Origin: Ectothiorhodospira sp. BSL-9
GTDB lineage: Bacteria; Pseudomonadota; Gammaproteobacteria; Ectothiorhodospirales; Ectothiorhodospiraceae
Reading direction: 5' to 3'
Length of the DNA: 64,000 bases
Assembly (NCBI RefSeq): GCF_001632845.1
Contig: NZ_CP011994.1
Location: 3,110,001-3,174,000 of the forward strand
In this document: piece by piece, positions 15,131 through 19,945 of the stretch
Layout of the letters: every line of letters starts with the position of its first letter
Position numbering within the stretch: position 1 is the first letter of the stretch
Position numbers and translations under genes: made by a program
Notes under the pieces: generated by a model
What the model was told of the DNA's origin: nothing
Database searches by the model: none
What the model saw: only the letters and a program-made list of their open reading frames with translations

Positions 15131-17332
15131 TCAGTCGATCAGATCAAAGCGCAGCCTGCCCTCGCTCTCCCATTGCCGCAGGCGCACTCGGGCCTCATCC
15201 GGGCCCAGCCCGCCCTGTTCGCTCAGGATGTCACACAGGGCTTCCCGCACGCCCTCACCCAGGGTCTGGGCATTACCGCAGACATAGAGCACAGCCTGCT
15301 TGTCTTGCAGCCATTCCCACAAGGATCGGGCCTCGGCACGCATGCAATCCTGCACATACCCGCCCCCATCAGGGTCACGGGAGAACACCGCATCCAGGCG
15401 GGTGAGCACCCCGTCGGCGCGCCAGTGCTCCAGTCTTTCACCGTGGAAATAATCGCCGGCACGCTTGCGGTTGCCGAAGATCAGCCAGGCGGGACCCATG
15501 CGCAGCCCATGGGCCTGCTCCTCCACAAAACCCACGAAGGGGGCAACGCCACAGCCAGCGGCGATCATGATCATGGGGCGGCTGGGATCTTCAGGCGGGT
15601 TGAAGTCCGGATGGGGACGCAGTGTGGCCTCCAGGGTATCGCCCTCCTTGAAGCCACGGCACAGCAGGCCCGAGGCCTTGCCCCAGCAGCTGTTGCCCTC
15701 GGCATCCTGGCGCCGGGTCAGGGCCACCGTGAGCAACAACCGATGTGGATCCACTTCGCTGCTGCTGCCAATGGAATAGGGGCGTCCCGGCTCCCCTGCC
15801 CCGGGGGCAACCAGAAGCAGGTCGCCGGGCCGGAAGGCCAGGGGTTCAGCGCTTTGCCATTGAAGGCTCCAGACCTCGTGGGTGACGGGATCGGCCGGGT
15901 CGTTGAGTTGCGTTCGCCGCTCCAGCGTGAGCGTGACGGACTGATCGCCTCTTGGCGCCTCCACGGCACCCGGGGTCACGCCCACATCCTGGCCCACGTC
16001 CCGCAGCCACTGCGCCCAGGGTTCGGTCGGGTCGCAGTCCACCTTGACCAGTGGCAGGCATTCCTCGGCGCCAGCCCGTTTCAGGGCATCATGCAGGACA
16101 AGGCCACCAGCGCAGAAGTGGGTGTAACTGGAATCCCCCAAGGCCAGTACGGCGAAGCGACAGCCCTTCAGGTTCGCTCCCTCCAGCGCCTTGAGAAACC
16201 CTCGAGCCGGTTCGGGCACCTGGCCATCACCGGCGGTGGAGGCAATCAGGAATACGCGCCGAAACGCCTTGAGCTCGGACGGACTCAGGCCCGCCAGAGA
16301 GGCCCCCATGACCCGGGCACCGCCCTGGCGCAAGGCCTCGGTGGTGGCCTGCGCCAGGCGTGCTGCCGTGCCCGTCTGGCTGGCCCAGGCCACCAGGATG
16401 TCGGCATCCGCATCGCCGGTGCGTCGTCGGGACTGCAGTCCGCGCCGGCCCCAGGAGACCAGCCCGGTCACCATCAATGCCATCAGCAGCATTGAGGCCA
16501 GAAGATTCAGGGCACCCGACCAGCCACCGGCCCAGGTCCCCTCGTGCAGCTCCGCCACCAGCCCAGGATAACTGCCCACCCGGGTGACATCATCGCGGGT
16601 CACCACAAAGGCAGCAGATGCCTCTCCTGCGCGGCCATTGATGGCCACTGCCGCGGTCTGCATGCGTCGGGCATCCCAAACATGGGTGAGACCTCCCTCC
16701 TCCACCGCCCGCTCGATGGCCTGAGCCATGGGCATGTGCCCCTGATCGCGATCCACCTCGGGGAACTGCGGTGTACCCAGAGAGAGGGCCATCATCACGC
16801 CGGTGGCCGACACCATGAGCACCAGGGGAAATCCCGCCCAGCCCAGCAGCGTATGCCAACCCACCAGGGTGTGGCGTAGCCGAGGCCAGGCCAGCAAGGG
16901 GCCCACGATGATCACCAGCACCATCAGGTAGGTGGCGATGTCCACCACGATGTCCAGGTCCAGCAACAGGTGCTTATGAAGGTGCTGCACGGTATGGAAA
17001 AAATCAGCCCCGATGGCCCGTTGCTCCAGCAACTGCCCGGACCCCAAATCGAAGGCCTGCCATTCCCGCTGCCCCTGGCGACTGAATTCCACCACGGCGA
17101 TGCCCGGCTCCTCGAACTCCACCGCTCGGGAGCGGGCCTGGGGATCGACCCGGGCAAGGACCTGCAGTAATCGATCCACCGGAACGGGTTCCTGAGCCGC
17201 CGGGCCTGAGGCCAAGTCCTTGATGATGGGCGCAAAAGAGAGGATGGCACCGGTGATGATGATCAGCCCGAACAGCGGCAGCAACAGCAGCGTCAACCAG
17301 CGATGCAGCAAGACCAGGATCTTCATGACCAT
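15131..17332 (-). CDS. PepSY-membrane/flavodoxin/ferredoxin-reductase fusion (putative ferric or sulfite reductase-like flavoprotein)
   Basis: A 733-residue fusion. Residues 1-300 form a PepSY_TM region with four hydrophobic helices (starting LHRWLTLLLLPLFGLIIITG) flanking a periplasmic PepSY domain. Residues about 308-450 are a flavodoxin-like FMN domain (VAWASQTGTAARLA, ASTAGDGQVPEPA). The rest is a CysJ-type FAD/NAD(P)H reductase: RPYSIGSSS binds FAD, MIAAGCGVAPFVGF and LYVCGNAQTLGEGV bind the nicotinamide nucleotide. Such proteins are thought to pass electrons across the membrane, often for reduction of ferric siderophores. The ferritin gene next door supports an iron role, but the substrate is inferred. 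An alternative start is the ATG at 17326. Confidence 0.8.
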   Translation of the reverse strand: MVMKILVLLHRWLTLLLLPLFGLIIITGAILSFAPIIKDLASGPAAQEPVPVDRLLQVLARVDPQARSRAVEFEEPGIAVVEFSRQGQREWQAFDLGSGQLLEQRAIGADFFHTVQHLHKHLLLDLDIVVDIATYLMVLVIIVGPLLAWPRLRHTLVGWHTLLGWAGFPLVLMVSATGVMMALSLGTPQFPEVDRDQGHMPMAQAIERAVEEGGLTHVWDARRMQTAAVAINGRAGEASAAFVVTRDDVTRVGSYPGLVAELHEGTWAGGWSGALNLLASMLLMALMVTGLVSWGRRGLQSRRRTGDADADILVAWASQTGTAARLAQATTEALRQGGARVMGASLAGLSPSELKAFRRVFLIASTAGDGQVPEPARGFLKALEGANLKGCRFAVLALGDSSYTHFCAGGLVLHDALKRAGAEECLPLVKVDCDPTEPWAQWLRDVGQDVGVTPGAVEAPRGDQSVTLTLERRTQLNDPADPVTHEVWSLQWQSAEPLAFRPGDLLLVAPGAGEPGRPYSIGSSSEVDPHRLLLTVALTRRQDAEGNSCWGKASGLLCRGFKEGDTLEATLRPHPDFNPPEDPSRPMIMIAAGCGVAPFVGFVEEQAHGLRMGPAWLIFGNRKRAGDYFHGERLEHWRADGVLTRLDAVFSRDPDGGGYVQDCMRAEARSLWEWLQDKQAVLYVCGNAQTLGEGVREALCDILSEQGGLGPDEARVRLRQWESEGRLRFDLID

Positions 17333-17638: not shown

Positions 17639-18157
17639 ATGATTTCCACCGCCATGGCCGACAAGATCAGCGATCAGATCAACCGCGAATTCTACTCAGC
17701 ATACCTGTACCTCGCCCTCTCCACCGAGGCCGACAACGCCAATCTGCGCGGCACCGCGGCCTGGTTCCTGGCGAAGTACCACGAGGAGTCGGCGCACGGA
17801 TTGAAGATGGTTCGCTATCTGCTTGATCAGGGCGCCAAGGTCACCCACGGCGCAATCGCCGCACCAGCGTCACAGACCGGCTCAGTGCTGGCCATGTTCG
17901 AGCGCACCCTGGAGCACGAACAGCAGGTCACCGCAGCCATCCACGACATCGTTGACCAGGCGCTCAGCGAAAAGGACCATGCCACCAACATCTTCATGCA
18001 CTGGTTTGTCACTGAGCAGATCGAAGAGGAAGCCACCGTCAACGACATCCTCGGCCGGCTGCGCCTGTTCGGCGACCGCAGCGAAGGGTTGCTGATGATC
18101 GACAACGAGCTGGCCGCCGCCGCAAAGAGCATGGAACAGGAAGAGCCGGTCGCCTGA
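17639..18157 (+). CDS. ftnA: Ferritin (FtnA-type)
   Basis: Iron-storage protein expected to form a 24-subunit shell in the cytoplasm and oxidise Fe(II). The 172 residues include helix A with QINREFYSAYLYLALS (ferroxidase Glu and Tyr), helix B with KYHEESAHGLKMV, and helix D EQIEEEATVNDILGRL. The pattern is that of non-heme bacterial ferritin rather than bacterioferritin, as the heme-binding Met is not obvious. The start ATG at 17639 follows CGAGG. It is followed by a hairpin overlapping its stop codon and by a Cys/Lys-rich microprotein gene. The position next to a membrane flavoprotein reductase suggests linked iron handling. Confidence 0.92.
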   Translation: MISTAMADKISDQINREFYSAYLYLALSTEADNANLRGTAAWFLAKYHEESAHGLKMVRYLLDQGAKVTHGAIAAPASQTGSVLAMFERTLEHEQQVTAAIHDIVDQALSEKDHATNIFMHWFVTEQIEEEATVNDILGRLRLFGDRSEGLLMIDNELAAAAKSMEQEEPVA

Positions 18158-18167
18158 CCGGCTCTTT
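18142..18167 (+). terminator. Hairpin overlapping the end of the ferritin gene
   Basis: A ten-base perfect stem AGAGCCGGTC/GACCGGCTCT with a GCCT loop, followed by TTACC. The stem includes the stop codon. It is a plausible terminator with a short U run or an mRNA-stabilising 3' hairpin. Confidence 0.5.
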
Positions 18168-18233
18168 ACCTGATGACCTCACAGTCAGGATGACCGACAT
18201 CCACCACAGTCCAACCGCGCGAAAAGCCCCCTG

Positions 18234-18317
18234 ATGTCAAAAAAGAAGAAGGACAAATGTTGCAAGAAGTACAAAGAGGGCAAACGCTGTAAGGATTGCC
18301 CCAAGCGCAAGGACTGA
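18234..18317 (+). CDS. 27-residue lysine/cysteine-rich microprotein
   Basis: ATG at 18234 to TGA at 18317 encodes 27 residues with 12 lysines and four cysteines in a CC and C-x2-C arrangement: it starts MSKKKKDKCCKKYKEGKR and ends CKDCPKRKD. No strong ribosome site is visible. The composition is far from random for this GC-rich DNA because AAG/AAA and TGC/TGT codons dominate. Cysteine spacing suggests metal binding or disulfides, and the flanking ferritin and ArsR genes fit a metal context. I recall similar short CCKKY-type proteins annotated as hypothetical in proteobacteria but cannot verify this here. Confidence 0.55.
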   Translation: MSKKKKDKCCKKYKEGKRCKDCPKRKD

Positions 18318-18382: not shown

Positions 18383-18736
18383 TCACACCACACACGTGGC
18401 TCCGGGCCTGTCGGCCATGGTGGCCAGGCGTTCATGGTCGCGGACGAAGGGCTCGGTGGGGGCAATCTCCTGGGCGGTGCGTTCAAGGATGTCGCGCACC
18501 CAGGCCGGGAGATTGGGATTGATCCGGTAAAAGATCCACTGACCGCGTCGATGATCGGCGACGAGACCGCTCTCGCGCAGCAGGGCCAGGTGGCGGGACA
18601 CCTTGGGCTGGGGCATCTGGATGGCATGAGTGAGCTCGCACACACAGAGCTCACCCTCCTGACTGAGCAGGGTGAGGCACCGCAGGCGTGTGGAATCCGA
18701 CAGGGCCTTGAAAACGGTTTCCGGTAACTTGTTCAT
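18383..18736 (-). CDS. ArsR/SmtB-family transcriptional repressor
   Basis: A 117-residue winged-helix repressor. The metal site typical of arsenic/antimony sensors is present in ELCVCELTHA (Cys31 and Cys33), with a further cysteine at position 115 in the tail ATCVV. The recognition helix is QPKVSRHLALLRESGLV, followed by the wing RGQWIFYRIN. Arsenite or another thiophilic metal would release it from DNA. No arsenic efflux or reductase gene lies in the window; its own target may be its operon with the DCC gene six bases downstream... on the other side it faces the microprotein gene. Target assignment is open. Confidence 0.88.
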   Translation of the reverse strand: MNKLPETVFKALSDSTRLRCLTLLSQEGELCVCELTHAIQMPQPKVSRHLALLRESGLVADHRRGQWIFYRINPNLPAWVRDILERTAQEIAPTEPFVRDHERLATMADRPGATCVV

Positions 18737-18741
18737 GGAAA

Positions 18742-19176
18742 TCAGGAGTCCTTGGGCAACTCACAGGTCGCGGGTTGCCGACGACGATAGCGGGCGAAGA
18801 TGCCGTAACCAAAGTCCATCACCGGCAGCACGCCGGGGATCGCCGATACCACCCTGGCCAGCCAGCGATAGCCTGGCAGGGCGCTCCAGACGGTGACAAA
18901 GGCATACGCACCGGTGGTCAGCCGACCCTCGGCGTCGCAGGCATGCATCCGCTTCATGGCCTGCTCCCAGGTCACCCCCAGACGATCCAGCTCCTCGGGA
19001 TGACTGTGCAGATCAAGCCAGTTGACCCGTCCAGCCTTGTCCAGGCGCCGATAGTGGCCGATCTCACGTCGACACAGGGGGCAGCCACCATCGTAGAAGA
19101 CCATGGGCCTGCCGTCGAAGCCATCGTTTTGCGACGGGCTGGAAGAGACGGAACTGTTTTCGGCGGTATTCATCAA
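18742..19176 (-). CDS. DCC-family thiol-disulfide oxidoreductase-like protein (DUF393)
   Basis: A 144-residue protein with the family signature VFYDGGCPLCRREIGHYR near residues 26-43; the DxxCxxC pair gives the family its name. Members have a thioredoxin-like fold and a presumed redox role that is not well defined. The rest shows HSHPEELDRLGVTWEQAMKR and ends in a basic tail. It lies seven bases after ubiG and five before the arsR start on the same strand, so the three may be one transcript. In other proteobacteria DCC proteins often neighbour ubiquinone or respiratory genes, consistent with ubiG here. Confidence 0.85.
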   Translation of the reverse strand: MMNTAENSSVSSSPSQNDGFDGRPMVFYDGGCPLCRREIGHYRRLDKAGRVNWLDLHSHPEELDRLGVTWEQAMKRMHACDAEGRLTTGAYAFVTVWSALPGYRWLARVVSAIPGVLPVMDFGYGIFARYRRRQPATCELPKDS

Positions 19177-19183
19177 TTTTGCC

Positions 19184-19945
19184 TCAAGATAGACGGGGGC
19201 CGGGCTTGTGCGTCATGAGCATGTAGTTCACCCCCATGTACCCGGCCAGACTCATGCGGCGGTTGAACGGATTGCCCCGTACACCCGTGCGTTCGATCAC
19301 CTCCAGACCATCCGGCGTGAGCAGGGCCTCGAGTTCGTCCGGCGTGGGGAAGCGCTTCCACTGATGGGTGCCCCGGGGCAGCCAGCGCAGGATGTACTCC
19401 GCACCAATGATGGCGGCCACAAAGGAAGCCGCCGTGCGGTTGATGGTGGCAATAAAGCCATAGCCCCCGGGACGCAGCAGGCGGTTGCAGGCCTGCATGA
19501 AACCGGGCAGATCCGCCACATGCTCCACCACCTCCATGTTGAGCACCACATCGTAATGGGTGTCACGGCCCGCCAGTGTCTCCACGGAGACCTCCTCATA
19601 GGTGACCGGCAACCCGGCGTGTTCCCCATGCATCCGCGCCACGACGATATTGCGGCCGGTCACGTCCACCCCGTGCACGCGAGCACCCAGCCTTGCCATG
19701 GACTCACTGAGAATCCCTCCTCCGCAGCCGATATCCAGCATGGTGAGACCGTCCAGTGGGCGATCGGCATTCGGGTCGCGCCCCAGATAATGGCAAAGCC
19801 GCTCCAGGATATAGCGGGTGCGTACCCGGTTCAGGGTGTGCAGGGCCCAGAAAGGCCCCTGATCGTCCCACCACAAATCGGCCAGAGCCGTGTAGCGGGC
19901 CACCTCTTCCGGGTCGATGGAAGACTCTGGGGCCGGGGTCGTCAT
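19184..19945 (-). CDS. ubiG: Ubiquinone biosynthesis O-methyltransferase
   Basis: SAM-dependent enzyme that carries out both O-methylations in ubiquinone synthesis. The 253-residue protein starts SIDPEEVARYTALADLWWD, as UbiG proteins do, and has the SAM motif MLDIGCGGGILSESMARLG, then VHGVDVT and the NMEVVEHVADLPGF stretch. C-terminal NPFNRRMSLAGYMGVNYMLM also fits. The start overlaps the end of the upstream dehydrogenase by one base (TGATG-type junction at 19945), suggesting translational coupling. Confidence 0.95.
   Translation of the reverse strand: MTTPAPESSIDPEEVARYTALADLWWDDQGPFWALHTLNRVRTRYILERLCHYLGRDPNADRPLDGLTMLDIGCGGGILSESMARLGARVHGVDVTGRNIVVARMHGEHAGLPVTYEEVSVETLAGRDTHYDVVLNMEVVEHVADLPGFMQACNRLLRPGGYGFIATINRTAASFVAAIIGAEYILRWLPRGTHQWKRFPTPDELEALLTPDGLEVIERTGVRGNPFNRRMSLAGYMGVNYMLMTHKPGPRLS

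Follow-up and report, generated by a model that had tools for sequence, protein, structure and literature searches.

An unannotated open reading frame of 27 residues in Ectothiorhodospira sp. BSL-9 is strongly supported as a real gene by its conservation, by in-frame insertions and deletions in its relatives and by synonymous change. The sequence of the microprotein looks like the metal-cluster tip of FhuF-type reductases, standing as a separate tiny protein. That likeness, together with the recurrence of ferritin as a neighbor in different families, is a concrete functional lead, new relative to an earlier note on this DNA. The reading that I tentatively favor is that the four cysteines of the microprotein form a single FhuF-tip-like metal site, most likely Fe-S or iron, and that the peptide acts, where it is linked to FtnA, as a partner of that ferritin in the manner of Bfd.

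The features discussed below, all within the window (the whole 64,000-nt stretch of DNA that was analyzed), are as follows:

17639..18157, + strand: FtnA-type (non-heme) ferritin gene, 172 aa; Pfam Ferritin at 4.5e-35
18144..18168, + strand: hairpin across the ferritin stop codon, GAGCCGGTC-GCCT-GACCGGCTC; a stable fold
18190..18233, + strand: leader of about 45 nt (gaccgacatccaccac... up to the ATG), with identity to locus L003 and no clear Shine-Dalgarno sequence
18234..18317, + strand: microprotein gene, 27 aa, CC-x8-CxxCP, with ATG start and TGA stop
18255..18302, + strand: codons of the conserved core, the 16 residues KCCKKYKEGKRCKDCP (residues 8-23), nine columns of which are invariant in 19/19 aligned members
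18383..18736, - strand: ArsR/SmtB gene, convergent to the microprotein gene

The microprotein gene and its relatives

The frame translates to MSKKKKDKCCKKYKEGKRCKDCPKRKD followed by the stop, with 12 lysines and four cysteines, the latter disposed as CC and CxxC. The earlier note had drawn attention to this Cys/Lys peptide, had placed it between the ferritin and ArsR genes, had found its codon usage unlike that of neighboring DNA, and had judged it hard to explain by chance, all of which holds up. Lysine and cysteine make up a fraction of 0.59 of its residues, the highest amongst the 543 open reading frames of 20-60 aa in the window (the next has 0.22). Its G+C content is 0.44, as compared to 0.61 for ferritin, 0.63 for ArsR and 0.635 for the window overall, a low value mostly because the peptide is so rich in lysine. 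The codon AAA is used for 4 of the 12 lysines, as compared to 0 of 6 in ferritin, 0 of 3 in ArsR, 1 of 12 in the PepSY reductase and 0 of 2 in the methyltransferase (both described below). There is a single copy of the gene in its own genome.

The family conforms to the pattern K-C-C-K-K-Y-[KR]-x(n)-C-x2-C-P. The core KCCKKY-x-CxxCP is invariant across all 19 aligned members, the nine unchanging columns being K, C, C, K, K, Y, C, C and P. Both CC and CxxC are kept in every member, with eight residues between them in 18 members and ten in one (L005). Most of the nine invariant positions are encoded by two or more synonymous codons. Within the 16-codon core of the 16 gammaproteobacterial copies, dN is less than dS in all 36 of the 120 pairs with a usable dS, a result to be read with the fact that the core was picked for its conservation, which favors such an outcome (the other 84 pairs gave no usable dS). 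The relatives in Ectothiorhodospira carry in-frame indels, e.g., KKNKKT and KDKDRKH. The earlier note had pointed to stops and frameshifts in close relatives as evidence against a gene and to synonymous change as evidence for one: the indels proved to be all multiples of three and the frame intact, and change amongst the relatives is mostly synonymous.

It is very improbable indeed that the frame arose by chance or is a relic without translation. The window copy does have a low G+C content and no Shine-Dalgarno sequence, as might be expected of such a frame, but the core is near identical across phyla, with the synonymous change and in-frame indels just noted, three genomes contain in-frame fusions, and L016 has a strong Shine-Dalgarno sequence (AAGGAGG). 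The microprotein is probably translated in the cell.

The gene is uncommon. Counting its own genome, it is present in 5 of 10 Ectothiorhodospira genomes, and its prevalence is 3/369 at the level of the class (profile A1), 5/47 at that of the order and 1/398 at that of the phylum. When a single genome of each species was scanned, at least 16 loci came to light: one in E. haloalkaliphila, at least eight in Chromatiaceae (Halochromatium, Lamprobacter, Lamprocystis and metagenome-assembled genomes, or MAGs), one in a gammaproteobacterial MAG, and at least six in Bacteroidota, those among the matches listed coming from Pedobacter, Edaphocola, Taibaiella (twice), Sphingobacterium and a Bacteroidetes MAG. 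A class-level search added two more (L016 and L017). BLAST at E ≤ 1 gave matches in 13 of 58 genomes, the true relatives being only the five rows from Ectothiorhodospira. Ten rows from eight genomes (L006-L015; E from 0.098 to 0.92) were dropped as chance matches; their frames are Arg-rich, or long and GC-rich, and lack KCCKKY, as judged from a six-frame motif view of all of them and translation of three. A viral source was rejected as well: 61 stretches in viral contigs fit the pattern, none of them a relative. A search of plasmids gave no DNA match and no protein match at E 10, where a query so rich in lysine may be masked by the low-complexity filter. The string CCKKYK was not found in the literature searched, and titles and the beginnings of abstracts on small Fe-S or ferritin microproteins in bacteria, or on the ferritin of Ectothiorhodospira, contained nothing on the microprotein gene.

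Some of the DNA upstream is conserved with the gene. Positions -45 to -1 are 75-80% identical in L003, with flanks further out at 28-42%; the leader is 48-65% identical in L004, and L005 keeps none of it. This suggests that the leader travels with the gene in Ectothiorhodospira and that the two make a compact, self-contained unit. Further upstream, the region 18135-18240, including the hairpin across the ferritin stop codon, folds at -36.5 kcal/mol (z -4.4), and none of 200 shuffles was as stable. A terminator scan found no site meeting its U-run rule, and Rfam offered no known RNA element (best chance match E 0.97). The hairpin may separate two transcripts or attenuate readthrough in the window. 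By eye, its pairing is largely kept in E. haloalkaliphila by means of G-U pairs.

Likeness to the tip of FhuF

The 19 members touch only three NCBIfam families, all siderophore-iron reductases of FhuF type: TIGR03950 is touched by 15 of them (best E 9.1e-4), TIGR03951 by one (0.21) and PRK10647 by one (0.86). FhuF is described, in an excerpt of PMC11965169, as having the motif C-C-x10-C-x2-C with a 2Fe-2S cluster. The window peptide aligns to positions 201-223 of the 223 in TIGR03950, with an E of 0.29 and a score of 10.9 bits, where the cut-off is 137.9. The likeness is weak for single sequences, and the microprotein falls under the curated cut-offs of FhuF_C and TIGR03950 alike.

Other searches gave little. 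None of the 19 members matches Pfam FhuF_C (PF11575) or any of the Pfam metal families, the sole match being to a TNF-receptor-like model (E 0.03). There was no match for family members in PHROGs nor, by profile, in PDB, and NCBIfam gave nothing at E ≤ 0.1 for four longer natural forms. In short, this is a conserved gene, found in several phototrophs, that meets no model in Pfam, NCBIfam or PHROGs above its curated cut-off.

The contribution of the cysteines to the FhuF signal may be seen from shuffled sequences. With the cysteines held fixed, 2 of 38 shuffles touched TIGR03951 (best 0.074), 1 of 38 TIGR03950 (0.29) and 1 of 38 PRK10647. With all residues shuffled, 0 of 38 touched the FhuF families, and one match each was found to anti-TRAP and CopL models. 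Since the Cys-fixed shuffles mostly lose the match, the signal comes in part from the spacing of the cysteines and for the remainder from other residues. A comparison of profiles, the family against six FhuF-type tips, gave a probability of 74% and E 2.8e-5, as compared to 2.1% and 0.023 for Cys-fixed shuffles. The six tips were those of E. coli FhuF, three class loci, and two plasmid FhuFs with the motif; five plasmid FhuFs had been fetched, and three without CC...CxxC in the stretch were left out. The one member with the x10 spacing of FhuF (L005) reads CCKKYKDKDRKHCKDC, to be compared with CCQRYRLPDVQQCGDC in E. coli FhuF, a protein whose C-terminal end is ...RRTCCQRYRLPDVQQCGDCTLK and whose structure has been solved (7qp5). 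An AlphaFold model of the 32-aa member L024 is of low confidence (pLDDT 58, pTM 0.16) and so lends no structural support.

The earlier note had proposed a metal-binding or redox peptide. This is plausible, given that Cys, Tyr and Pro are invariant and that the only families to resemble the microprotein are FhuF-type with [2Fe-2S], and the site is a predicted one. I take an Fe-S or iron site to be likelier than a zinc site.

In three of the Chromatiaceae (L019-L021), the microprotein and a secreted or membrane protein share one continuous frame, the microprotein being joined to the N-terminus of the latter; three other loci (L022-L024) encode that second protein in a separate gene. Because the fused motif stands before the signal or transmembrane segment, it would lie on the cytosolic side. 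The family of the secreted or membrane protein, which has no match in Pfam or NCBIfam, is found behind the ferritin-microprotein pair in all six of these loci (for example, at 4100-4933 in L020 and 5184-5990 in L024). In four Bacteroidota loci (L028, L029, L032 and L033), the motif occupies the C-terminus of frames of 50-80 aa, with a further C-x(3)-C ahead of it.

Ferritin, Bfd and other neighbors

The window ferritin, whose best NCBIfam match is the non-heme ferritin PRK10304 (1e-29, under its curated cut-off), ends 76 nt upstream of the microprotein gene. As found by tblastn with this ferritin, a same-strand ferritin gene lies directly upstream of the microprotein in at least 11 genomes, with gaps of 16-157 nt (L001, which is the window; L002/L018, from the single genome of E. 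haloalkaliphila; L017; L019-L025; and L027). No ferritin was found within the approximately 1.5 kb fetched on each side of L003-L005 and L016, nor in flanks of up to 5 kb around L030 and the six Bacteroidota loci listed. Three of the five Ectothiorhodospira copies (L003, L004 and L005) adjoin genes without an iron link. The neighbors of these and of the Bacteroidota loci, where named, are unrelated genes: DUF533, GGDEF, LysR and 5'-nucleotidase; DNA polymerase I, ribosomal S2, SHMT and GSDH. Since the three Ectothiorhodospira copies and the six listed from Bacteroidota are not beside ferritin, a ferritin role is not universal, and a function confined to ferritin throughout the family is ruled out.

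The flanking metal genes had been taken in the earlier note to point to a metal role. The argument stands for ferritin, whose linkage recurs. ArsR, however, adjoins the microprotein gene in just two cases, the window and the closely related E. haloalkaliphila, so its adjacency counts for little. Two further genes follow ArsR on the same strand (18742-19945, -), encoding a DCC1-like thiol oxidoreductase and a class I methyltransferase, and these too are kept in E. haloalkaliphila. On the other side, upstream of ferritin and read away from it (15131-17332, -), is a gene encoding a 733-aa fusion of PepSY_TM, flavodoxin and a CysJ-like flavoreductase. The fusion could serve as a local NADPH electron source.

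Bacterioferritin requires Bfd in order to release its iron, according to an excerpt of PMC12363616, and an excerpt of PMC7762939 names no dedicated partner protein for heme-free bacterial ferritins. Of the ten genomes of the genus, only G000 and G007 have an FtnA-type ferritin like that of the window (L061 and L062 are its only strong matches among the ferritin loci). These same two have no free-standing Bfd (defined as an open frame of up to 126 aa), and for Fer2_BFD they have just one match, to a protein of about 232 aa that appears from its sequence to be NifU-like. A short Bfd frame lies beside bacterioferritin in G001, G002, G003, G005, G008 and G009 (the pair in G009 by coordinates only). 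Both the microprotein and a short Bfd frame are absent from G004 and G006. Among the matches listed, free-standing Bfd is absent from all 11 ferritin-linked genomes and present in all five proteobacterial genomes in which the microprotein is unlinked (G002, G003, G005, G376 and G799); it was not found in the six Bacteroidota genomes among the matches listed. The pattern is confounded by ancestry, because 8 of the 11 ferritin-linked genomes are Chromatiaceae, and ancestry alone could give rise to it. Strict substitution for Bfd is ruled out as a general rule by G002, G003 and G005, which carry both Bfd and the microprotein.

Possible functions and known counterparts

According to the reading I favor, the microprotein would be cytosolic, its four cysteines holding one small metal site of the kind found in the C-terminal tip of FhuF (CC-x10-CxxC, [2Fe-2S]). 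In the ferritin-linked lineages, the very basic peptide would dock on the acidic shell of FtnA. The microprotein has 14 K+R and 4 D+E, the ferritin subunit 13 K+R and 27 D+E, a match of charge that would favor docking. Once docked, the peptide might pass electrons to the ferritin core or handle iron leaving the core, thereby working as Bfd does for bacterioferritin without being a Bfd. The identity of the metal, the docking, and the transfer of electrons are each putative. A conserved gene directly behind FtnA nonetheless provides a testable candidate for a partner of heme-free ferritin, and should the microprotein hold an Fe-S cluster, it would rank as an extremely small protein of that kind and would show that the cluster tip of FhuF can stand as a module of its own. 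A more specific claim may be framed, that in purple sulfur bacteria a single-cluster Fe-S peptide of 25-30 aa, built from a four-Cys tip of the FhuF kind, has replaced Bfd and is dedicated to heme-free ferritin, either as its electron shuttle or as its partner in iron release. I consider this unlikely, but if true, the peptide would be a candidate for the smallest natural ferredoxin.

The main rival, a serious possibility though I would not wager on it, is that the microprotein is a structural zinc knuckle that binds nucleic acid or the ribosome: CC-x8-CxxC would bind Zn(II), the Lys/Arg surface would bind RNA, DNA or the ribosome, and the ferritin neighbor would be incidental or reflect metal-responsive expression. 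The SEC-C motif and other small zinc sites resemble it in size and in their Lys/Tyr make-up. A very basic peptide with four conserved cysteines would suit such a role, no redox-reductase partner was seen, and the unlinked copies (L003-L005 and those in Bacteroidota beside DNA polymerase I, ribosomal S2, SHMT and others) show no iron theme. The proposal nevertheless leaves the repeated adjacency to ferritin unexplained, and the 19 members match no zinc-finger family in Pfam, NCBIfam or PHROGs, FhuF-type reductases being all they touch in NCBIfam.

It is quite improbable that the microprotein is a thiol buffer or a metallothionein-like chelator, produced along with ferritin, that keeps Fe(II) or soft metals bound with no transfer of electrons. 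Four cysteines in 27 residues next to ferritin might be read in this way, as might the nearby ArsR/SmtB regulator and DCC1-like thiol oxidoreductase in the window, but ArsR is not a neighbor in other lineages, and the constancy of the spacing and of Lys, Tyr and Pro goes beyond the demands of a flexible chelator.

The favored reading, a FhuF-like metal site, can be set against three kinds of known system. Metallothioneins and small zinc-knuckle peptides are, like the microprotein, short, Cys-rich and basic, but the microprotein has only four cysteines, one fixed pattern, an invariant Tyr and Pro, and no family match in Pfam or NCBIfam. Bfd (PF04324) would be the functional parallel: it too is small and has four cysteines, and its gene adjoins that of an iron-storage protein, as the microprotein gene does in the ferritin-linked genomes. 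Bfd itself, however, is about 65-75 aa in length, has the pattern C-x-C ... C-x2-C (CxC-x(about 32)-CxxC) and partners the heme-bearing Bfr, whereas the microprotein has a different Cys pattern and no sequence likeness to Bfd (Fer2_BFD is matched by 0 of 19 members), and the ferritin to which it is linked is FtnA-type rather than Bfr. With the FhuF-type tip (PF11575, TIGR03950, TIGR03951), the microprotein has in common CC-x-[KR]-Y-[KR]-...-C-x-x-C-P. It differs from FhuF in having 27 residues instead of about 250, with no N-terminal reductase domain (about 200 residues), in its usual spacing of x8 rather than x10, in its richness in lysine, and in its linkage to ferritin rather than to siderophore receptors.
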